Origin: a virus
Reading direction: 5' to 3' (one strand)
Virus record (IMG/VR): IMGVR_UViG_3300021964_000021
Coordinates: 55,142-119,141 of that record
Length of the DNA stretch: 64,000 nt
Below the pieces are notes generated by a model. It saw only the letters and a list, made by a program, of their open reading frames with translations, searched no databases and had not been told where the DNA came from. Every line of letters starts with the position of its first letter. Within the stretch, counting starts at the first letter, position 1. The translations under genes and the position numbers were made by a program. Positions 19,500 to 63,701 of the stretch are shown in pieces.

Positions 19500-19571
19500 G
19501 CGGAGTTAGTTCAGCGGTAGAACGCTATCCTTCCAAGTTAGATGTCGTCGGTTCGATTCCGATACTCCGCT
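19500..19571 (+). tRNA. tRNA-Gly (anticodon UCC)
   Basis: A 72-base cloverleaf. The acceptor stem GCGGAGT (19500-19506) pairs perfectly with ACTCCGC (19564-19570). The D-loop contains TTCAGCGGT, the anticodon loop is CTTCCAA, and the T-arm contains GGTTCGATTCC. One T-T mismatch is visible in the anticodon stem. No CCA is encoded. It reads GGA codons, frequent in this AT-rich phage. Confidence 0.9.
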
Positions 19572-19572
19572 T

Positions 19573-19585
19573 CCCCCTTCGGGGG
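19573..19585 (+). other. Short GC hairpin after tRNA-Gly
   Basis: CCCCC (19573-19577), TTC loop and GGGGG (19581-19585) form a compact hairpin two bases after the tRNA. No T-tract follows, so it is more likely a processing or stability element than an intrinsic terminator. Confidence 0.35.
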
Positions 19586-19604
19586 CAATCATTATAAAAG
19601 GTCT

Positions 19605-19760
19605 ATGCGTCCAGAAACACGTAAATCGATGGAAATGTTGTTCACTGCAAAGTGGAATTTACCAAAAGCAGCAGAACATGCTAATCTGACTAATAAGGAA
19701 ATGAAGATTACTTTTAATGAGTATTGTCATTTTCATCCACCAACTTATAAAGTATCTTAA
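19605..19760 (+). CDS. Small conserved-looking phage protein of unknown function
   Basis: A 51-residue protein starting MRPETRKSMEMLFTAKWN, with a NLPKAAEHANLT helix-turn-like element and ending FHPPTYKVS. The ATG at 19605 is chosen because AAAAGG lies seven bases upstream; the frame is open upstream only through tRNA-Gly. The AAEHANLTNKEMKITFNEY segment could be a small helix-turn-helix, which is a guess. It lies between two tRNA genes. Confidence 0.65.
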   Translation: MRPETRKSMEMLFTAKWNLPKAAEHANLTNKEMKITFNEYCHFHPPTYKVS

Positions 19761-19791
19761 TAAACGTCATTTATTAAGAATACTTATTTTT

Positions 19792-19875
19792 GGGAGCGTG
19801 GCGGAATCGGTAGACGCACCAGACTTAAAATCTGTTGAGAATTATCTCGTGGGGGTTCAAGTCCCCCCGCTCCTA
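19792..19875 (+). tRNA. tRNA-Leu (anticodon UAA)
   Basis: An 84-base class II tRNA. The acceptor stem GGGAGCG (19792-19798) pairs with CGCTCCT (19868-19874, one G-T pair). The anticodon loop is CTTAAAA, the long variable arm GAGAATTATCTCG is visible, and the T-arm contains GGGTTCAAGTCCC. It reads TTA codons. Confidence 0.9.
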
Positions 19876-19928
19876 TTGGGAAGGAGTACCCAAAGACTCT
19901 ATGTAGAAAGAGCGCCTTCCCTTAAAAA

Positions 19929-19935
19929 CTAAATA
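19929..19935 (+). promoter_or_regulatory. CTAAATA late-promoter-like element
   Basis: CTAAATA lies 18 bases before the next start codon, after a GGGAAGG...CCTTCCC inverted repeat (about 19878-19921) that follows tRNA-Leu. It would give the downstream gene late expression independent of the tRNA transcript. Confidence 0.4.
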
Positions 19936-19953
19936 TTAGGAAACGGTAACAGT

Positions 19954-20256
19954 ATGAGTACGAAGCTCAAGCTTACTAAAGCATACTGCTGGTACGATTC
20001 AATGGAATTGGGAGTACCAGAAAGAGTAGTCAAAATGTACTTCATAAATGGCATACCTTTTACCTGGGATGAATTGACAGAAGCAGAAGAAGAAAATTAT
20101 TCTTGTAGAATTGCTGCTGACACACATAAACTTCGTTATACGCCAGAACACTTATTCCAATCTTCTGGATATTTAATAATGGAAGAATGTCATCCTTGTT
20201 TTTTTGAATTGGAATTAGAAAATCCAGAAATGCTTGCTGAGTTAGATGAATCTTGA
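19954..20256 (+). CDS. Hypothetical protein
   Basis: A 100-residue acidic protein (MSTKLKLTKAYCWYDSMELG...) with four cysteines and a Trp-rich centre (GIPFTWDELTEAEEENYSC). I do not recognise the family. The downstream oxygenase gene begins inside its last codons, so the two are probably translated together. Confidence 0.55.
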   Translation: MSTKLKLTKAYCWYDSMELGVPERVVKMYFINGIPFTWDELTEAEEENYSCRIAADTHKLRYTPEHLFQSSGYLIMEECHPCFFELELENPEMLAELDES

Positions 20257-20797
20257 TTATTCTAGAGAACCACATGCAATGTTCTCTGTTCCATTTTTTG
20301 TTGAAAAAGTTGATCTAGATAAGATTGACTTTAATGATAATCCTACTTTTGCCCCATCTTTTTTGAGTGGAGTAAATTCAAGCCTTTCTGGGGATTCTTT
20401 GACTGATGAAGCTTATGAATATTTGGGATCTATAATCTCAGAATGTATTGGTAGATTTTCTGATAAACCTTTTGCTATTGGTCAAGTATGGAGGAATGAA
20501 TATAATAAAGAGGATTGGCAAGATCCTCATATTCATTCTGGTGCTCAATGGAGTTTTATCATATATGATACCGTTCAATGTTCTAAAACAGTATTCATGA
20601 ATCCTGCCAGGAAGGAATACATGAATCAATGGGGAATGTATGCCCATACTATTCCAATGGACTTTATTCCAGAAATTCCCTCTGGTGGTATGATTATATT
20701 CCCTTCCTGGGTCGAGCACTTTGTAATGTCTGGTAATGAAGGATCAACAATATCTGGGAACATTTACCTTGTGGAACCTCCAGCAGGACCACAATAG
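20246..20797 (+). CDS. Putative 2OG-Fe(II) oxygenase-like protein
   Basis: A 183-residue protein in the style of the PF13759 oxygenase family: DPHIHSGAQWSFIIYD (His ligands, residues about 92-107) and GGMIIFPSWVEHFV (second His, residues about 150-163). The Arg that normally binds 2-oxoglutarate after the second His is not obvious (GSTISGNIYL), so activity may be altered or lost. A later start at 20279 (MFSVPFF) is possible and would remove the overlap with the previous gene. It ends just before tRNA-Thr. Confidence 0.6.
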   Translation: MNLDYSREPHAMFSVPFFVEKVDLDKIDFNDNPTFAPSFLSGVNSSLSGDSLTDEAYEYLGSIISECIGRFSDKPFAIGQVWRNEYNKEDWQDPHIHSGAQWSFIIYDTVQCSKTVFMNPARKEYMNQWGMYAHTIPMDFIPEIPSGGMIIFPSWVEHFVMSGNEGSTISGNIYLVEPPAGPQ

Positions 20798-20799
20798 AC

Positions 20800-20871
20800 G
20801 CCCTTGTAGCTCAGTGGTAGAGCAGCTGTCTTGTAAACAGCAGGTCGTCCGTTCAAATCGGATCGGGGGCT
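20800..20871 (+). tRNA. tRNA-Thr (anticodon UGU)
   Basis: A 72-base cloverleaf. The acceptor stem GCCCTTG (20800-20806) pairs with CGGGGGC (20864-20870, two T-G pairs). The anticodon stem GCTGT/ACAGC encloses CTTGTAA, and the T-arm contains CGTTCAAATCGG. It reads ACA codons. Confidence 0.9.
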
Positions 20872-39154: not shown

Positions 39155-39995
39155 TACTAAGCAGATAGAACTACATGTAACTCATGCATGTAATTTTACA
39201 TGTGAGGGTTGCTCTCATTACTCCAATCATGGATACTCTGGTAACTTATCTTTAGATACTGCTAGAGAATGGCTATATAATTGGAGTCAAAGGGTGGTGC
39301 CTGATACATTTGTCATCCTAGGTGGAGAACCAACATTAAACGAAGAGTTAACAGAGATTGTATATCTGGTTAGGATGATATATCCTGACCCATCAACTAA
39401 GATTGATTTAGTATCAAACGCTAGTTTCTTACATAAACACCCTAGACTCCCTCAAGCACTAAAAGCAACACAAACAAACCTAGCGATATCGATTCATAGC
39501 ACTAAACATAAAGATTATGTAAGGAGGTTCAAGAGAGGATATAAATTAGCAAAGGAATGGAAGCATAATTTGGGTGTACATGTAGAGTTTTGGGACTTTA
39601 CAAATACCCATTGGATACCTCAGTACAAGGGATATGGTAATAACTTTATGCCATATGAGGATGACAATCCTAGATTAAGTTGGGAGAAGTGTGTATCTAA
39701 ACATGCTATGCAAATACATGAGGGTAAGTTATGGAAGTGCCCTGCACTAGCATATCTCCCTATGCAAGCAAACAAGTATAATCTGAGTCAAAAGTGGGAT
39801 CCTTATCTAAAATATGAACCATTGAGTTTAGACTGCACTGACGAAGAGTTAAAAGAGTTTTTGAGTAGAGAGGACGAATCGTTCTGTTCTATGTGTCCAG
39901 CAAACAAGACCGAACCTTACATCAAACAAGATCCAACATTACCTGTTAGTTATTGGGAGAAAAGATATGATAACATGGGGGATATCATCGAATAG
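39144..39995 (+). CDS. Radical SAM protein, paralogue 2
   Basis: A 283-residue protein with the cluster motif ACNFTCEGC (C16, C20, C23), LGGEPTLNEEL, and the C-terminal set ENCVSKH-like KCVSKHAMQ, WKCPALAYLPMQ and FCSMCPA. The segment KLWKCPALAYLPMQA is the same as in paralogue 1, so they are recent duplicates. It lies directly after the oxygenase pair and overlaps the carbamoyltransferase start. Confidence 0.85.
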   Translation: MQFNTKQIELHVTHACNFTCEGCSHYSNHGYSGNLSLDTAREWLYNWSQRVVPDTFVILGGEPTLNEELTEIVYLVRMIYPDPSTKIDLVSNASFLHKHPRLPQALKATQTNLAISIHSTKHKDYVRRFKRGYKLAKEWKHNLGVHVEFWDFTNTHWIPQYKGYGNNFMPYEDDNPRLSWEKCVSKHAMQIHEGKLWKCPALAYLPMQANKYNLSQKWDPYLKYEPLSLDCTDEELKEFLSREDESFCSMCPANKTEPYIKQDPTLPVSYWEKRYDNMGDIIE

Positions 39996-41391
39996 TCACA
40001 ACGCTGCTCTAGCAGTGTTTTCTAATGACTCTCTCATGTTTGCTAGTCAAAGTGAACGTTTTAGTAGAAAGAAGAACGATCCATATATTTGTGAAGAACT
40101 GATTCATCATGCATTAAAGTATGGTGAACCTGAACTAATTTGTTGGTATGAGCAACCACTTAGGAAGAAGTTGCGACAAATTAGGGCGGGTCAAGGGATG
40201 TTCCAAGATAACTTCACCAAATACTTTAATTGTAAGCATAAGTTTATTGACCATCATTACAGTCATGCTTGTGCTGGATACTTCACTAGCAAGTTCCAGA
40301 GTAGTGCTATTCTTGTGATTGATGGTATTGGTGAGACAACTACTATGAGTATTTGGTCTGCCAAAGGTAGTAATATTAAGCAGTTATGGAAGCTCAAGTA
40401 TCCAAATAGCATTGGTCTCTGGTATTCTGCAATGACTCAACGTTGTGGATTTAAACCAAATGAAGAAGAATACCTAATGATGGGTCTATCAGCATATGGT
40501 AATGGTGGAGAATATGTTGGTAAGATTATGAGTGAATTGATTGGGATGGATTTTGAGTGCAAACAAAACATGCATAGGGGGATAGGTGACTGGCAACCAG
40601 AGGCATCTCCTGAGGAGATCGCTGCTGCATCTCAAACTGTTTATGCTACTTTATTTTGTAATGCACTCTCCCTCACAAAAAGATTGACTGGTAGTGATAA
40701 CATTGTAATTATGGGTGGGTGTGCATTGAATTGTGCTGCAAACACACATGCATATGACTTCTTTAAACGAGTGTGGATTATGCCAGCACCAGATGATGCT
40801 GGATCTGCTATTGGTGCGGTGCTTGCCCATAAGAAGATAAGAATACCATTCACTCCCTACTTGGGATACAAGATTCTACAAAAGGATACTAATGCTTCAA
40901 TCGTTGAATACTTGAGGTATCATAAGGTATGTGGTCTTGCTAGGGGTAGAGCAGAGTTTGGACCCAGAGCACTTGGTGCCAGGAGTTTGTTGGCAGATCC
41001 AACAGTTCATAACATTAAGGATGTTGTCAATACTATTAAGAGAAGGCAATCATTCCGACCATTCTCACCTGTGGTTCCGATTGAATATGCTTCAAAATAT
41101 TTTGATATGCATGATGACATGGTAGAGAGTCCATTTATGCAGTACACTGTTAAATGCAAAATGCCAGAGTTGTTACCTGGAGTGGTGCATGTTGATGGGA
41201 CCAGCAGGGTGCAGACAGTGAAGAAGACTGATACACCAAGATTGCATGATTTGTTACTTCGTTGGGGTAAAGTATCTGGCCATCCAGTGCTTCTTAATAC
41301 CAGTTTAAATATCAAGGGGCAACCGATAGTCAATGATGAATATGATGCTGGGGTTTGGTCTGAGACGCATGGCATAAGAGTATTCCAATGA
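39967..41391 (+). CDS. Carbamoyltransferase (NodU/TobZ family)
   Basis: A 474-residue protein. The N-terminus (ITWGISSNSHNAALAVF) and the motif FIDHHYSHACAGYF are those of the YrdC-independent N-terminal Kae1-like domain that handles carbamoyl-adenylate. NIVIMGGCALNCAANTH and EFGPRALGARSLLADPT are further family signatures. Such enzymes transfer a carbamoyl group to a hydroxyl on sugars or other small molecules. Neighbouring hydroxylating oxygenases could create that hydroxyl, which is inference. The start overlaps the radical SAM gene by 29 bases. Confidence 0.85.
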   Translation: MITWGISSNSHNAALAVFSNDSLMFASQSERFSRKKNDPYICEELIHHALKYGEPELICWYEQPLRKKLRQIRAGQGMFQDNFTKYFNCKHKFIDHHYSHACAGYFTSKFQSSAILVIDGIGETTTMSIWSAKGSNIKQLWKLKYPNSIGLWYSAMTQRCGFKPNEEEYLMMGLSAYGNGGEYVGKIMSELIGMDFECKQNMHRGIGDWQPEASPEEIAAASQTVYATLFCNALSLTKRLTGSDNIVIMGGCALNCAANTHAYDFFKRVWIMPAPDDAGSAIGAVLAHKKIRIPFTPYLGYKILQKDTNASIVEYLRYHKVCGLARGRAEFGPRALGARSLLADPTVHNIKDVVNTIKRRQSFRPFSPVVPIEYASKYFDMHDDMVESPFMQYTVKCKMPELLPGVVHVDGTSRVQTVKKTDTPRLHDLLLRWGKVSGHPVLLNTSLNIKGQPIVNDEYDAGVWSETHGIRVFQ

Positions 41392-46136: not shown

Positions 46137-47095
46137 AACAGTTTACCTTAATCGAGGCAGACAAGTATATCAGAATTGATGGTCTTGGTATCTTCTTTAC
46201 TGAAGAGAACTGGCCATTTGCTGATATTGAGCATCTGTGGGCAATTCAGTGGAAGGATAATGGCACTGAAGATGGTGTCGGTGAGGTAGAATATGATTCT
46301 CCTGTCCCAAATACTCCTGCTACTCGTAAAATGATCGAACGTTATGTTGATCATTTTAATGCTGAGAAGGAACGTCAGGAGGAAGAGAAGCGTAAGCAAG
46401 AAGAGGAAGATAGGAAGCAAGCATTGTCTTGGCAAGAGGCAATGGCAGAATTAGAAGGTCAGATGGAGGAGATGCAGAAGAGACATGATGATAATCTTCG
46501 TAGCATGAACTCTGATCATGATCAGCAACTGCAGAAGATGGTCGCTAATCATGATAATCAGATGGTCTCAATGCACTCTCTTCAAGAGAAGGTTGCACAC
46601 GATGCCAGTGAAGAGATTCATAAAACTCACCAGCGTATTGCACAAGCACATGAAGAATTCTTCTATGGTGAAGAAAGAATTCAAACTAATGTCAGTGAGA
46701 GTGAGAGGAACTTCCAGTTTGAAGCAGGATATGAGAACCTAACTGTATTTGATGGTAACGTTGATCCTTCACTGTTTGATGATGCTGTAGATGAATCTCT
46801 CTTTGAAGTTGAAGAAGCAGATATTGTATCACCAGATCAGGTTCCTACAGCAGTTCTCCTTCCCGAAGAGGAAGAGCAAGAGGATAATGTGGAGGAGGAA
46901 GATGATGATACTCCAACAGTAAGTAATTTTGATGACATTGACCTTGGTCTGCTTGACAATGAGTTCAGTCTTGAGTTATTATTTGAGGAAGACAGCACGG
47001 AGCAAGTCGTCTCTGAGATCGAAGAACTGATCGCAGAGGAAGAGTCTGAAGTCCCTGACGCCTCAATCCCTGATAATGAACCAACAACTGATTGA
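46133..47095 (+). CDS. Coiled-coil acidic protein, probably structural
   Basis: A 320-residue protein. Residues 1-65 are globular (FTLIEADKYIRIDGLGIFF). Residues about 78-175 form a long Glu/Lys/Gln coiled coil. Residues 200-320 are very acidic and low in complexity (LPEEEEQEDNVEEEDDD). It overlaps neighbours at both ends. A scaffold or structural role is possible; no family is assigned. Confidence 0.5.
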   Translation: MKQFTLIEADKYIRIDGLGIFFTEENWPFADIEHLWAIQWKDNGTEDGVGEVEYDSPVPNTPATRKMIERYVDHFNAEKERQEEEKRKQEEEDRKQALSWQEAMAELEGQMEEMQKRHDDNLRSMNSDHDQQLQKMVANHDNQMVSMHSLQEKVAHDASEEIHKTHQRIAQAHEEFFYGEERIQTNVSESERNFQFEAGYENLTVFDGNVDPSLFDDAVDESLFEVEEADIVSPDQVPTAVLLPEEEEQEDNVEEEDDDTPTVSNFDDIDLGLLDNEFSLELLFEEDSTEQVVSEIEELIAEEESEVPDASIPDNEPTTD

Positions 47096-48218
47096 TAACA
47101 ACTACGTCATTGTTCCTGACTTTATATCTAAAGAGAAAGCACAAAGTTTAGCAAAGCAATTCAAAGAGTATTGTGATACTCATGAACTTCCCGATGACCC
47201 ACAAGTGTCGGGAAGTAATGCTAAGTATGAGTTTAAACCATTCATTGAATTGTTGGTTCAGAAGAATCAACATGTATGTGAGTTAGTTGGCGAATCTGTT
47301 TTGCCAACTTATTCTTATGCCAGAGAATATAAGAAGGGTAATGTCCTTGTAGGGCATGTAGATAAACCACAATGTGAGATATCACTCACCATTAACTTGG
47401 AGTGTGATGAAGTATGGACTATTTGGATCTATACACCTTCAGGTGAGAAGAAGTGTGTTGATTTGCATCCAGGTGATGCTATGTTGTATTTGGGTATGGT
47501 TGGTGAGCATGGTAGGGATGCTTTTAATGGAGAATCTTGCACACAAGTATTCTTACATTATGTTAGGTTGCATGGTCCATGTTTCAAATACTATTTTGAT
47601 AAAGATCACCGATACAGGGAAGACTTGGTTAAGACTACTACAACAATTTCTGGTGAGAATAAGTTGCTAGAGTATATCAAAGTTTATGATAACATCTTCA
47701 CACCAGAAGAATGTGAGATGATTCTTGATGAGTATCAGGACTGTGAGCACTGGGCACCAGCAGGTGTTAGTTCTAATAATACACAGAATCCTAGTGTTCG
47801 TAACTGCGATATTATATCCATCTCTACACCACAGATCATCAATAAGAATAGATTACATCGTAACATGATTGATAAGATGATCTTCAAGAAGGCAAATGGA
47901 GCAGCACAGAGATACATTAAAGACTTCCCCACATGCTTCTTGAAGTCTGATAGTGGATATGATCTGCTGCGATATAATAAGAGTGGGTTCTATAGAGAAC
48001 ATACTGATAGTTATCAGGAACAACCAAGAACTGTTGCTATGTCTATCAATCTAAATGATGATTATGGTGGTGGTAATATGGCATTCTTTAATGAAGAAGT
48101 ACAAATTAGAGCAGGAGCGGGAAGTGTAATCATGTTCCCCGCTAACTTCATGTATCCGCATCAAATTATGGATGTCACGGAAGGAACACGTTACTCTATT
48201 GTAACTTGGTTTACTTGA
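47076..48218 (+). CDS. Double-domain 2OG-Fe(II) oxygenase
   Basis: A 380-residue protein with two oxygenase modules. Module 1 (residues about 1-185) has VGHVDKPQCEISLTINL (HxD), HPGDAMLYLGMVGEHG (second His). Module 2 (about 195-380) has YREHTDSYQEQPRTVAMSIN (HxD), FPANFMYPHQIMDV (His) and GTRYSIVTWF (Arg). Module 2 is closest to prolyl-4-hydroxylase types. Two active-looking sites in one chain suggest successive oxidations. It is followed by a sigma70-like promoter. Confidence 0.75.
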   Translation: MNQQLIDNNYVIVPDFISKEKAQSLAKQFKEYCDTHELPDDPQVSGSNAKYEFKPFIELLVQKNQHVCELVGESVLPTYSYAREYKKGNVLVGHVDKPQCEISLTINLECDEVWTIWIYTPSGEKKCVDLHPGDAMLYLGMVGEHGRDAFNGESCTQVFLHYVRLHGPCFKYYFDKDHRYREDLVKTTTTISGENKLLEYIKVYDNIFTPEECEMILDEYQDCEHWAPAGVSSNNTQNPSVRNCDIISISTPQIINKNRLHRNMIDKMIFKKANGAAQRYIKDFPTCFLKSDSGYDLLRYNKSGFYREHTDSYQEQPRTVAMSINLNDDYGGGNMAFFNEEVQIRAGAGSVIMFPANFMYPHQIMDVTEGTRYSIVTWFT

Positions 48219-50553: not shown

Positions 50554-50586
50554 TTCTTTATAGATACATTGAACCATAAGGTGACT

Positions 50587-51654
50587 ATGAAAGTAGGAAT
50601 GATCGGACTTGGACGGATGGGCGAAGGAATGTCCCGCCGTCTCATTGCAGCAGGACACGAAGTGCATGGATACAGAAACAATGTTAAAAAAGCTGATGAG
50701 CAATACGAAAAGGGTTATATCAGTGGATATACCACTTCTCTGGAAAGCCTTGTTCAAGTAATTAAAACCAAGGAAGTATATGGTGAGAAGTCTGGAGAAA
50801 CTCTACACTTCCCACAACCAGGCGTCTTTATGATGGTAGTGCCTGCAGAAACTGTAGAGGAGACACTCAATGAGTTATTACAATTTTGTCGTGAAGGAGA
50901 TATTATTATTGATCATGGCAATAGCAATTTTAAGGACAGTAGGAAGAGAGCAGAGCGTCTGGCAAAGTTGGGCATCGCGTATATTGACTGTGGCACTAGT
51001 GGTGGTGTTTATGGTCTGGAGCGTGGATACTGTCTTATGGTTGGTGGCGGAAATACTGCAGTCGATACCTGCCGTCCAATCTTTGATGCACTCGCACCAG
51101 GCATCAAGTCTGCCCCCAGGACTCAACCTGACAGCAACTTCACTTGGTATCCAGAGGAGTATGGATGGATGCATTGCGGCGGTCCAGGCGCTGGTCACTT
51201 CGTGAAGATGGTGCATAATGGTATTGAATACGGTATAATGCAAGCATATGCTGAAGGATTTAATATCCTACATGAAGCAAACGCGGGTGCCAAATATGTC
51301 AAAGCAGGAGACGCAGAAGTCGCCCCAATGGACAACCCTGCCGATTATCAGTACGACATTAACGTTGCTAAGGTTGCTGAGTTATGGCGTCGTGGTAGCG
51401 TGGTTGGCAGTTGGTTACTTGATCTTACCGCTGATGTTCTACGGAGCGATAGAGAGCTTAGCAAATTCGATGGGGGAGTTAGCGACAGTGGTGAGGGTCG
51501 TTGGACGGTTCACGCTGCTGTGGATCTTGGTGTACCCGCTCCTGTCATCAGCAATGCGCTGTTTGCGCGTTTTGAGTCGCGCCGTTTGGGTGCTTTCACT
51601 GCCAAGGTTCTGAATGGTATGAGAGCAATGTTTGGAGGACACGACGTGCGATGA
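50587..51654 (+). CDS. gnd: 6-phosphogluconate dehydrogenase (decarboxylating)
   Basis: A 355-residue enzyme from ATG 50587 (MKVGMIGLGRMGEG), preceded by ATAAGG. The NADP Rossmann motif GLGRMG is at residues 7-12. IIDHGNSNFKDSRKR, CGTSGGVYGLERGYCLMVGG and GGPGAGHFVKMVHNGIEYG are the substrate-binding and catalytic signatures (Lys of HFVKM). It converts 6-phosphogluconate to ribulose-5-phosphate, making NADPH. The length fits the short-form family. With talC and CP12 it would shift host carbon flow to the pentose-phosphate route. Upstream frame extension to 50569 is possible but lacks a ribosome-binding site. Confidence 0.95.
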   Translation: MKVGMIGLGRMGEGMSRRLIAAGHEVHGYRNNVKKADEQYEKGYISGYTTSLESLVQVIKTKEVYGEKSGETLHFPQPGVFMMVVPAETVEETLNELLQFCREGDIIIDHGNSNFKDSRKRAERLAKLGIAYIDCGTSGGVYGLERGYCLMVGGGNTAVDTCRPIFDALAPGIKSAPRTQPDSNFTWYPEEYGWMHCGGPGAGHFVKMVHNGIEYGIMQAYAEGFNILHEANAGAKYVKAGDAEVAPMDNPADYQYDINVAKVAELWRRGSVVGSWLLDLTADVLRSDRELSKFDGGVSDSGEGRWTVHAAVDLGVPAPVISNALFARFESRRLGAFTAKVLNGMRAMFGGHDVR

Positions 51655-54769: not shown

Positions 54770-55563
54770 TCACATCAGGCATTTTAGATATTTTAGATCA
54801 GGAAGGGATTGATAACACCCTTGAACGCATTGATTTGCTGCAAGAATGGTGGATTCCTCGCGGCATTTATGGTGGTAAAGAGAAGAAGTTTGCTCCCGAT
54901 GAGGACAATCCGATTGACTTCCATACCATTGGTGCTGCAACATATATGGATGATCCTATGATCTACCATATGATTTTGGAGGAAGCAGGTCCTATCATGA
55001 AGGAGTATTTTGAATGGTTGTATGGAGTCATTGAATACCATCTTTATGATGCTATTGGTCCTTGCAGAATAAATAAGGATCTTGCACCACCAGGATTTCA
55101 TATCTTTGGTGCTAAACCAGAGCAAGAACCAAAACCTGCAAGTAAAGAATATCTTGAACGCCCATGTGCTACAATTCATTATGATGAACAGCATTTGCAA
55201 CATAATGCAGTGTGGGATGATTATGAGAAGGTAGGTGCAACTGTGGACCTAGATAATCCTCTATCTTTTACATTGTGTCTTGCTGCACCTGAGACTGGTG
55301 CTGGTCTGAGTACCTGGGAGGAGGATTCTCTCAAGTGCTATGACAAGAATGATGATTATAGTAATCATGTCAAGTCTCTTGAATATGGTGGATATGGACC
55401 ACCAGATGCAGTTATTCCATATAATCCTGGTAAAATGTTCTATTGGATTGGTGCATTGAAGCATCAAATGTCACCAGGATTCAACCTTGACTTGCATGAT
55501 AAGCGCATTACTCTGCAGGGACATGGTGTCAAAGTCAATGATACTTGGGAGCTTTACTTCTGA
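54766..55563 (+). CDS. 2OG-Fe(II) oxygenase-like protein
   Basis: A 265-residue protein. CATIHYDEQHLQ (HxD ligand, near residue 135), LSFTLCLAAPETGAGL, FYWIGALKHQMSP (second His) and KRITLQGHGV (Arg) outline a double-stranded beta-helix oxygenase. It is larger than the other copies in the window and sits directly before a glycosyltransferase, sharing stop/start bases (TGATG). Confidence 0.6.
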   Translation: MITSGILDILDQEGIDNTLERIDLLQEWWIPRGIYGGKEKKFAPDEDNPIDFHTIGAATYMDDPMIYHMILEEAGPIMKEYFEWLYGVIEYHLYDAIGPCRINKDLAPPGFHIFGAKPEQEPKPASKEYLERPCATIHYDEQHLQHNAVWDDYEKVGATVDLDNPLSFTLCLAAPETGAGLSTWEEDSLKCYDKNDDYSNHVKSLEYGGYGPPDAVIPYNPGKMFYWIGALKHQMSPGFNLDLHDKRITLQGHGVKVNDTWELYF

Positions 55564-56672
55564 TGATTAGATATCAACAACAATATACTGCTAGTGGCAC
55601 TGGTCTGGGTTGTCAGATCTCCACCTATGTTTTGATGCGGGCACTGGCACAAGACACTGGGTTTGATTGGTCTATCTCAAGTAAGGATTTTAATCTACTG
55701 CGTAATACATTCTCTGAGTTGCCACTGGTAATTGATGATAGTGATCAAGAGTATGTGGATATGGAGTTGGATGATGAGGTAGGATACAACTATATTAAAG
55801 ATAATATCCAAGATAATTCTAAATTGTTCATTTATCCAACAATTAAGAACATCAACTCTGAGCATACTATTCGTCTTTACAATGAGTTGAGATTTAGGCA
55901 GGACATTGTAGATAAGTGTCGCGCATTTAGGGATAAGTTTGATGGTGAAGTCATTGCCATGCATGTTCGTAGAGGTGACTTTATGGATCTAAGCAGTGGT
56001 ATGTTCCTTTGTGGTGCAGATTACTATCGTAATGCACTTAATGAATTACCATCAGATTTGCCTGTACTGATCTTCACCAATGACAAAGATAATGTTATTG
56101 CTGATAATGATCTGATTGCAAGTAATCCAGAGAGATTTACATTTATCACTGATCTATATAATGACAATGAATTGATTAATTGTGATGTAGGTCAGGAATT
56201 AGATCGTTTGATTGATAATGATGGTTTGAATTGTAAGTTTAACTATCAGAATGCTATTCTACGATTGGCTCATAATAATCTGAAGAGTTTTGCTCGTGAT
56301 GCCTCTGGGTATACAATGGAGCAACTGAAGAGTGAAGTCAAAGAAATCACGGCAGAACTACATCCCACATATAAGAGTAAGATTAAATCTCAGTCATATA
56401 ATGCATCATATGACTTATGCTTGATGTCTATGTGTGATTACTTCATCATGGCAAATAGTACATTTGGCATGTGGGGTGCAAAACTTGGTAATCCAAAAAA
56501 AGTTGTTTATCCAATGTATTGGATTCAAGGACATCCTGAAGAGGGTGCAGCAGCAATTAAAACTGATTTAAATGGATTTAATCAAACAAAGCATCATGCT
56601 GGTTCATTTATTAAAGAAAACTTTATTCCTGTAGAGAATCCCGATCCACGTTCATTTGAGGTTGTAAGTTGA
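55563..56672 (+). CDS. Glycosyltransferase family 11-like (alpha-1,2-fucosyltransferase-like)
   Basis: A 369-residue protein from ATG 55563. The motifs GTGLGCQISTYVLMRAL (N-terminal helix region), VIAMHVRRGDFMD (the HxRRGD signature, residues about 133-146) and YFIMANSTFGMWGAKLG (residues about 295-312) are characteristic of GT11. Such enzymes use GDP-fucose to decorate glycans. The paired oxygenase upstream suggests a sugar-modifying cassette, which is inference. Confidence 0.7.
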   Translation: MIRYQQQYTASGTGLGCQISTYVLMRALAQDTGFDWSISSKDFNLLRNTFSELPLVIDDSDQEYVDMELDDEVGYNYIKDNIQDNSKLFIYPTIKNINSEHTIRLYNELRFRQDIVDKCRAFRDKFDGEVIAMHVRRGDFMDLSSGMFLCGADYYRNALNELPSDLPVLIFTNDKDNVIADNDLIASNPERFTFITDLYNDNELINCDVGQELDRLIDNDGLNCKFNYQNAILRLAHNNLKSFARDASGYTMEQLKSEVKEITAELHPTYKSKIKSQSYNASYDLCLMSMCDYFIMANSTFGMWGAKLGNPKKVVYPMYWIQGHPEEGAAAIKTDLNGFNQTKHHAGSFIKENFIPVENPDPRSFEVVS

Positions 56673-61801: not shown

Positions 61802-62006
61802 AGTTCCAATTAAATTCAACAACTCAAAGAAGTTTGAATTATTCCCATGGGCAATGTTCTTATGGCGACTGGACAATCTAACAGAGAAGAGGACGTGTTG
61901 GTTTGAATGTTATGAACATGCAGAGAAGTATATAAGACGCTATAATTGTAAGTACACATTGCAGCATTACACAGGTGTCAAACACAGAACTAATTCAACC
62001 AAATGA
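61782..62006 (+). CDS. Hypothetical basic protein
   Basis: A 74-residue protein (MPRKKTEVPIKFNNSKKFEL...) rich in Lys, Arg and aromatics (WAMFLWRLDN, CWFECYEHAEKYIRRYNCKY). It overlaps the AbrB-like gene by 20 bases. Confidence 0.45.
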   Translation: MPRKKTEVPIKFNNSKKFELFPWAMFLWRLDNLTEKRTCWFECYEHAEKYIRRYNCKYTLQHYTGVKHRTNSTK

Positions 62007-62205
62007 TCCCAGGTATTTTACTCAGACGAGTGATGGATCATATGATCGTCACTTGTATCGTATTGTACTTGCCAACGGTGAGAGTCTTACGGTAGATGAT
62101 TATGAGCAGATGCGATCATTTTGGTTTAATTATGATTCAAAGTTACTGAGTCATGTTGAAGTTATTGATGATGTGAAGGAATCAGTCAAGGGATTTGGAG
62201 GATAG
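61975..62205 (+). CDS. Hypothetical protein with GTG start
   Basis: A 76-residue protein from GTG 61975 (VSNTELIQPNDPRYFTQTSD) with a beta-rich SDGSYDRHLYRIVLANGESL segment. GTG is needed because no earlier ATG fits; the overlap with the previous gene is 32 bases. Last gene before the KAS. Confidence 0.45.
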   Translation: MSNTELIQPNDPRYFTQTSDGSYDRHLYRIVLANGESLTVDDYEQMRSFWFNYDSKLLSHVEVIDDVKESVKGFGG

Positions 62206-62211
62206 TACAGT

Positions 62212-63402
62212 ATGTCAGTCAGTAATGCATATGTTGTTGGTTATGGAATGATCGATGCACTGGGGAATACACCAACCCAGTGTTTTGATAATATGCTGAA
62301 TGATTATAATCCCATTCAAAAGTTAGACTGTATGGGTGATCATAAGATTCAGTATGGCATACCATGTCATCATGACACTCTTCTTCCCGAGGGGTTAGCG
62401 CCGCGAAAATTAAAGACAATGACGCGAGCACAAGAACTGGCATTACATGCAACTGAACAAGCACTAAGGCACTCTAAGTTACCACACAGTTCTAATGTCG
62501 CAGTAATTATAAGTTCCTGTTCTAATGATGTAGAGGCACTTGATGCAAACTATCAAAAACTCAAAGATAATAAGCGTGTAAATCCGTTTACTATTGTCAA
62601 TCGTATTCCAGATATGATTGTGGGTCATATCTGTACTGAGTATCAATTCCATGGTGCAAGTTTAGCATTACAAGCAAGTTGTGCTACTGGAATGTATTCT
62701 ATTGATTATGCAATGAGGATACTGGATGAGTATGACTATGTAATTGTCGGAGGTAGTGACGCAGGTGTATTTGAGATGGCATTAAAGTACTTCTCAAGTA
62801 TTGGAGCACTGGGTAATCATAATTGTCCTTTTGATGATAATCGTGAAGGATTTGTAATGGGTGAAGGTGCTGGTGTTTTAATTCTACAGTCAGCAGAGAA
62901 GGTAAGAGAGTATGGATCAAAGATTCATGCAAAGTTATTCCCAGTAGGTTCTGCTACTGATGCATTTGATCTTACGTCACCAGCTACAGATGGTAGGGGT
63001 GCAAAGATTGCAATGAATAAAGCAGTATCAAAGTTACCTACAAATAAGATTGACATGGTATCTGCACATGCTACCAGTACACCAGCAGGTGATGAAGTAG
63101 AGTATAATACTATCACTGATAAGTTCGGAAGTATTCCAATCTATGCACCCAAGTCTAAGATAGGACATACACTATCAGCAGCAAGTATATTGGAGTGTAT
63201 CTACAGTATTGAGAGTATGAAGAATAGAGTGATTCCAAGGTGTTTTAATCTTACTAATGCATCATATGATAATACAAATAGTTTGGTAAGAACACCAGTA
63301 GAATTGTCAGGCACCAATACACTAAGGACACTGAATAATAGTTTTGGATTCGGTGGTAAATGTGCCTCACAAGTTATTGAAGTGAGTTGGTTCTATCCAT
63401 GA
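62212..63402 (+). CDS. Beta-ketoacyl-ACP synthase (KAS II/FabF-like)
   Basis: A 396-residue thiolase-superfamily condensing enzyme. Catalytic Cys157 lies in LQASCATGM, His286 in SAHATSTPAGDEVE and His319 in KSKIGHTLSAAS, giving the Cys-His-His triad of KAS I/II rather than the Cys-His-Asn of FabH. LNNSFGFGGKCAS near the end is the usual Gly-rich loop. Length matches FabF (about 410). It condenses malonyl-ACP with acyl-ACP in fatty acid or polyketide synthesis. No ACP gene is visible nearby, so it would use the host ACP. It follows six bases after the previous stop. Confidence 0.85.
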   Translation: MSVSNAYVVGYGMIDALGNTPTQCFDNMLNDYNPIQKLDCMGDHKIQYGIPCHHDTLLPEGLAPRKLKTMTRAQELALHATEQALRHSKLPHSSNVAVIISSCSNDVEALDANYQKLKDNKRVNPFTIVNRIPDMIVGHICTEYQFHGASLALQASCATGMYSIDYAMRILDEYDYVIVGGSDAGVFEMALKYFSSIGALGNHNCPFDDNREGFVMGEGAGVLILQSAEKVREYGSKIHAKLFPVGSATDAFDLTSPATDGRGAKIAMNKAVSKLPTNKIDMVSAHATSTPAGDEVEYNTITDKFGSIPIYAPKSKIGHTLSAASILECIYSIESMKNRVIPRCFNLTNASYDNTNSLVRTPVELSGTNTLRTLNNSFGFGGKCASQVIEVSWFYP

Positions 63403-63701
63403 ATGCAAAGCAAAGATGGTATCAGAATAATAAGGAGTTGACAAAGAAGAGAGCAGCAGAATCAAAGGCAAGGAAGTATGAGTGGTATAGAGAGTATATG
63501 AGTGATAAGTCATGTAGTATGTGTGGTGTCACAGAGGATCTCCAATGGCATCATATACATGATAATAAACTCGATAATGTGGGGGATTTACTCTATAAAA
63601 AAGGTAAGAATACAATACTCCAAGAGATAGCAAAATGTATCTGTGTATGTAAGGAATGTCATCAAAAAATTCATTCAAATACCCATGGAGATACTCAGTA
63701 G
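63399..63701 (+). CDS. HNH endonuclease-like protein
   Basis: A 100-residue protein from ATG 63399 (MNAKQRWYQNNKELTKKRAA) that overlaps the KAS stop by four bases. CSMCGVTEDLQWHHIH and CVCKECHQKIH give two zinc Cys pairs and the HH/H core of small HNH proteins. The very basic N-terminus would bind DNA. Its placement after the KAS may mark a mobile insertion. Confidence 0.75.
   Translation: MNAKQRWYQNNKELTKKRAAESKARKYEWYREYMSDKSCSMCGVTEDLQWHHIHDNKLDNVGDLLYKKGKNTILQEIAKCICVCKECHQKIHSNTHGDTQ

Follow-up and report, generated by a model that had tools for sequence, protein, structure and literature searches.

The open reading frame at positions 62212–63402 (+ strand) of the window is an intact gene for a beta-ketoacyl-ACP synthase (KAS) of the KAS II/FabF type. 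The window is the stretch of 64,000 nucleotides analysed here, the final 64 kb of a 119,141-base IMG/VR record which represents an incomplete genome. Originally regarded as an oddity of one phage, the gene turned out to have many viral relatives. Sequence comparison indicates a widespread viral family, apparently common to uncultured phages and absent as a close relative from the sequenced isolates of INPHARED. This family appears to be an old, deeply branching, virus-only branch of the FabF-type family.

The gene starts with ATG at 62212, ends with a stop codon at 63400–63402 and has no internal stops. A GGAGG sequence at 62197–62201 (+ strand), 10 nt before the ATG, may serve as ribosome-binding site. 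The protein of 396 residues contains both ketoacyl synthase domains (PF00109 and PF02801), the amino terminal one with E 1.2e-29 (104.1 bits against a gathering score of 20.8) and the carboxy terminal one with E 1.2e-21 (77.3 bits against 20.8). Upon alignment with the FabF proteins of Escherichia coli and Listeria (from the PDB), Cys157 (codon at 62680–62682), His286 (63067–63069), Lys314 (63151–63153) and His319 (63166–63168) coincide with the catalytic Cys, His, Lys and His of E. coli FabF, where we take the histidines to be residues 303 and 340. Titles of PDB entries name the FabF mutants C163Q and K335A. The protein thus has the triad and the lysine of an elongating KAS I/II, and the original prediction of a full-length KAS II-like enzyme with an intact triad was exact. 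Lys121-Arg122 aligns with the Arg-Lys of E. coli FabF, which is part of the ACP docking surface of that enzyme. Near the carboxy terminus, residues 379–384 (63346–63363) form a GFGGKC motif, where GFGG in cellular FabF sequences usually precedes [HTQV]N.

Among the NCBIfam models, fabF (TIGR03150) scored highest for the window protein, with 254.8 bits against an equivalog cut-off of 493.75; the relative L237 (241.4 bits) is also below this cut-off. As the score is so far under the cut-off, the substrate specificity of FabF is not transferable to the phage enzyme.

The fold is confidently predicted to be FabF-like. A structure model computed from an alignment of 66 sequences (32 phage, 34 cellular) reached a pLDDT of 95.4 and a pTM of 0.95; an earlier model based on a shallow alignment (pLDDT 45.9) was set aside. 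The model has the thiolase-like KAS fold: its PDB neighbours at ranks 1–32 are all FabF/KASII entries with a TM of about 0.9, and FabB first appears at rank 42. A library of predicted viral structures gave four matches at E 0.001 or better, namely two FabF-like proteins (23% and 19% identity) and two type III polyketide synthases. In comparison with bacterial FabF/KAS II (E. coli FabF, PDB 1kas; Listeria FabF, 5sxo), the phage enzyme has the same two domains, fold, Cys-His-His plus Lys set and GFGG loop, but it is only about 25–30% identical, remains under the equivalog cut-off, carries GFGGKC in place of GFGG[HT]N, and is placed outside the cellular FabF proteins in the tree.

The KAS gene closes a run of small + strand genes, the putative early-type train of the original prediction, about 600 bases from the contig end. 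Its GC content is 0.383 (window, 0.396). A promoter scan gave no excess over shuffled sequences, and PADLOC gave no match to a defence system. The gene is preceded by a DUF7441 gene (61975–62205, + strand, 76 residues) which ends 6 nt before the KAS start and also adjoins KAS in contigs L001, L002, L004, L008 and L028; the content downstream varies in this lineage. The upstream gene was considered as a possible ACP partner and was rejected, as it encodes DUF7441 and no ACP. The window's incomplete 119-kb record gave no match to an ACP, a desaturase, a FabI-type reductase or AcpS.

Two further elements lie between the KAS gene and the contig end. An open reading frame of 104 residues (63387–63701) overlaps the KAS stop codon; it has no Pfam match and shows a CxxC...HH...CxxCH pattern which, we assume, resembles that of HNH nucleases. 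The segment 63858–64000, past KAS and this small reading frame, is non-coding and has no Rfam match. Its DNA is 83–88% identical to L003, L004 and L008 and sits in a longer match of 80–82% to L001 and L002. The direct repeat AATCTCGACGAG occurs there in two copies, at the contig end, and four related copies were found in L004.

The carrier is well supported as a T4-type cyanophage, since the record contains two genes of PF00124 (psbA/psbD type), both outside the window, and the window contains T4-type baseplate families (PHROGs for baseplate hub/tail lysozyme and baseplate tail tube cap) and matches DNA of Synechococcus and Prochlorococcus phages, in short parts only. The assignment to a phage genome was thus confirmed. 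The gp23 gene (PF07068) was not found on the window's 119-kb fragment; of 42 records searched, 6 have it, and so do six of the seven among them that are about 100 kb or longer. In the KAS family, genes for T4-type helicase and single-strand-binding proteins are among those flanking KAS. Elsewhere, the window encodes three tRNAs, tRNA-Gly(tcc), tRNA-Leu(taa) and tRNA-Thr(tgt) (19500–20871), a Nol-like carbamoyltransferase (39967–41391), a 6-phosphogluconate dehydrogenase (50569–51654) and a family 11 glycosyltransferase (55545–56672). A protein of 380 residues (47076–48218) matches over its full length a PHROG named ferrochelatase, and its second half also matches a PHROG named 2OG-Fe(II) oxygenase.

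Eight other IMG/VR contigs share the KAS reading frame at 66–84% amino acid identity. Profile searches of IMG/VR extended the family: a profile of nine sequences retrieved 25 distinct KAS loci, and one of fifteen sequences retrieved 122 stretches encoding relatives, the best 80 of which were carried into the analysis, giving a total sample of 83 distinct contigs. The catalytic Cys, His, His and Lys are kept in all 81 uncut contigs, while the remaining two of the 83 end before the active site; a broken triad, named beforehand as a possible refutation, is therefore not the case. The KC dipeptide after GFGG is present in 81 of 81 uncut phage contigs and in none of 131 cellular sequences, a contrast which is partly circular because FGFGGKC was one of the retrieval patterns in the search yielding 122 relatives; the 23 uncut contigs of the 25-locus search and those of the eight-contig search were found without this pattern. 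Besides KC, the phage clade has invariant Asp15, Ser101 and Lys316, at positions where the cellular sequences differ. Five sequences were omitted from one alignment of the family (A4): L189, L230, L042 and L114, as their given ends cross a stop codon, and L238 as a precaution.

The KAS gene is under purifying selection. The dN/dS ratio was 0.12–0.30 over ten pairs including the window (0.28 for the pair with L001) and 0.06–0.31 over five pairs among the relatives, 15 pairs in all. A chance open reading frame is excluded because the frame is conserved in eight other contigs under such selection.

A tblastn search of 50,697 annotated phage records (INPHARED) revealed no close relative of the viral KAS. 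It returned 28 matches, all below 35% identity, and no matching record bears the name of a cyanophage. The five which were examined are bacterial-type FabF or FabB proteins and group with the cellular sequences in the tree, one of them on a long branch. They come from a prophage record, where the match adjoins a bacterial tRNA-modification gene, three unverified wastewater assemblies and one unverified fecal scaffold. We rejected the 28 matches as relatives of the viral KAS, as they look like bacterial contamination or host flanks, judging from their low identity and the five examined. The records OR848561, OR849884, OR846615 and MT835553 are unverified phage assemblies with a bacterial housekeeping FabF, probably as a result of host contamination. 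The original statement that such a gene is unusual in T4-like phages thus holds for sequenced isolates but not for uncultured phages.

To place the family, a tree of 68 sequences was computed with two support measures. It contained 23 phage sequences and 45 cellular ones (7 cyanobacterial, 5 Melainabacteria-type, 10 alphaproteobacterial and 23 others). A branch with 100/100 support separates all phage from all cellular sequences, so that the phage KAS is not placed among the cellular FabF proteins; an earlier tree of 152 sequences agrees with this split. The comparison with cyanobacterial FabF, proposed as a check in the original prediction, revealed no close tie. The cyanobacterial sequences were from Cyanobacteriota genomes, and those with small genomes were judged to be picocyanobacteria. 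Grouping the window lineage with the FabF proteins from two small-genome cyanobacteria costs 409 log-likelihood units and was rejected by the AU test (p 2.8e-50), which argues against recent capture from such a cyanobacterial host. Recent acquisition from the present host, as an auxiliary metabolic gene nested with the host gene, was accordingly discarded. In contrast, a constraint joining all phages with six cyanobacterial sequences costs 6 log-likelihood units and was not rejected (p 0.37). A deep origin from cyanobacterial FabF is thus compatible with the data, as is another placement of the root. Among the matches listed, the top cellular match of the window KAS has about 31% identity over the full length; the cellular sample was picked by conserved patterns of a mixed alignment as the best 80 of the matches listed, so a nearer cellular relative may exist. 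A search of genome contigs with phage-only patterns gave no match.

In related phages the KAS gene is linked to other genes of lipid metabolism. Besides KAS itself, the commonest cluster in its neighbourhood is a fatty-acid desaturase, present within 6.5 kb at 14 of 46 non-redundant loci. A Pfam desaturase was detected in 3 of 26 and 12 of 32 family records; the 43 of 58 records without a match include many short fragments. In 14 of the 15 contigs with both genes, the desaturase is at most 8 kb from KAS, and 13 of these 14 pairs share one strand. Random placement in the same contigs leads to a mean expectation of 6.2, and none of 20,000 simulations reached the observed 14. When the data were collapsed to eight lineages, which were chosen after seeing the data, seven had the desaturase within 8 kb (P 0.00055). 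The exception is G346, where the two genes are 90 kb apart. The desaturases displayed keep the three histidine boxes. As the desaturase is found downstream of KAS in some lineages and upstream in others, the pairing was probably formed or rearranged more than once. In one lineage, a class III aminotransferase gene (L216:1937-3013) is located between desaturase and KAS.

The most extensive set of such genes was found in the L196 lineage, which has gp23. Genes for FabI, an AcpS-like protein, a DesA-type desaturase and KAS are located on one strand within about 6.2 kb (L196:1058-7212 of IMGVR_UViG_3300025151_000017), as identified by domain matches. The FabI protein matches NCBIfam FabI with E 6.8e-78, under the equivalog cut-offs, and the AcpS-like protein matches PF01648 with 1.2e-10, above the cut-off, while TIGR00516 remains under its cut-off. 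FabI was found again in L197, L199, L200 and L204, and AcpS in 3 of 53 records. An ACP-domain match was obtained in none of 26 and one of 32 family records: a protein of 326 residues with an ACP-like domain and a DSLDAIEL site (L242:793-1773), encoded on the same contig as L196 about 33 kb from KAS. The end fragment of L196 has no DNA match among phages.

The linkage was also seen in the reverse direction. With FabI as the starting point, 7 of 15 loci had KAS downstream in the same orientation, the other eight ending within 4.8 kb; with the desaturase, 13 of 18 loci had it so placed, the other five ending within 2.6 kb. A third reverse search with a FabI or desaturase query revealed KAS downstream in two of two loci. 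As these loci are close relatives, the counts indicate stable linkage within lineages rather than independent events.

From these data we infer that the window enzyme is likely to be an active elongating KAS which, in the infected cell, alters the flux or the chain length of fatty acids. Host acyl-ACP would donate a fatty acyl chain to Cys157; His286 and His319 would decarboxylate malonyl-ACP, and the joining of acyl chain and malonyl unit would yield a beta-ketoacyl-ACP longer by two carbons. FabG, FabZ, FabI and ACP for the rest of the cycle would be supplied by the host, since the phage contig gave no match to ACP, desaturase, FabI or AcpS. The flux through elongation would then increase, or the membrane lipid made during infection would contain chains of another length, presumably with some benefit to the phage. 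Viral remodelling of host fatty acids is probably the role of the whole family, because the KAS of relatives belongs to a larger set of genes, with a desaturase and, in one lineage, also FabI, an AcpS-like and an ACP-domain protein. The linked genes favour promotion of synthesis and desaturation, and the proposed role in host lipids has gained support from them. Thylakoid composition and lysis timing, named in the original prediction, are candidate targets of such a role. Against an elongating role speak the lack of partner genes on the window's contig, albeit an incomplete one, and the 43 of 58 family records that gave no desaturase match.

It is unlikely that the enzyme, as a ketosynthase, produces a phage-specific acyl compound or a short polyketide-like one instead of ordinary membrane fatty acids. 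The deep split from all cellular FabF sequences tested and the columns fixed differently in the phages would fit such a product, but the neighbours in relatives are ordinary fatty-acid genes, no polyketide synthase partner was recognized among the flanking clusters displayed, and the best structural matches are to FabF and not to polyketide synthases.

We consider it quite improbable that the enzyme acts as a brake or sink. Expressed at a high level, it would decarboxylate malonyl-ACP or tie up host ACP and its partners, thus stopping host lipid synthesis and either freeing carbon and energy or weakening the envelope. When over-produced, FabF is toxic to E. coli, and this effect would need no more than a lone KAS such as that found on the window's contig. 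However, the FabI, desaturase and AcpS-like genes of the relatives would promote synthesis, and the complete triad is retained. Conservation of the catalytic residues in every uncut contig also makes it very improbable that the protein is a catalytically idle partner modulating host FabF, although KAS paralogues of this kind exist in the chain-length factors of type II polyketide systems.

A host contaminant, an assembly chimera or a very recent theft of cyanobacterial fabF, for which the position near the contig end might speak, can practically be dismissed, because phage DNA surrounds the gene in L001 and other contigs, where it also follows the same gene as in the window, the cellular identity is low, the host-lineage grouping was rejected and the GC content is close to that of the window; the gene is a genuine phage gene.

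In aquatic bacteria, desaturases are the main known means by which viruses control host lipids. Cyanophages are said to encode lipid desaturases, as reportedly described by Roitman et al. in 2018. These resemble the present case as viral lipid enzymes, the desaturase being the commonest lipid neighbour of the KAS family, but KAS is a different enzyme with a different reaction, and the window's contig has no desaturase.

Pelagimyophages predicted to infect Ca. Fonsibacter are listed with fabF and stearoyl-CoA desaturase in one group (PMC7029224). As far as this gene listing allows a comparison, the combination is the same, and the fabF genes may be members of the same viral KAS family. Clusters of acpP-fabF-fabG are described in Rhodobacteraceae prophages (PMC8224337). 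There, too, a phage-associated fabF is found beside other fab genes; according to the description, however, those phages are temperate and have the gene order of the bacterial chromosome, whereas the present family is from T4-type phages without that order. Viral fabF is further listed in deep-sea viromes (PMC10653327) and in one lake-sediment vOTU (PMC12783922). In the passages of the open-access literature (PMC) that mention viral fabF, it appears only in gene lists, and none of these passages gives an account of a virus-specific KAS clade, its signature or its linkage with FabI and AcpS genes.

Rather than a new enzyme class, the KAS clade is a viral branch within a core metabolic enzyme, and one which sequenced isolates do not show. 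It offers enzymes that are ready for expression and assay, and the gene neighbourhood in relatives makes a viral fatty-acid pathway testable. We tentatively propose, as a possibility on the weaker side of even, that an ancient KAS clade with its own gating-loop signature belongs to the T4-type phages of aquatic bacteria. In one lineage after another, it would have been joined by genes for desaturase, FabI, AcpS-like and ACP-domain proteins, giving a viral type II fatty-acid pathway by which acyl chains are made or reshaped for the infected cell, perhaps to a composition foreign to the host. If desaturase, FabI and AcpS-like genes accompany the clade in this way, phages would intervene in chain building itself. 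The gene sets suggest that related viruses may remodel the membranes of infected cells, which is relevant to the maintenance or change of membranes in infected cyanobacteria and to viral lipid turnover in water.
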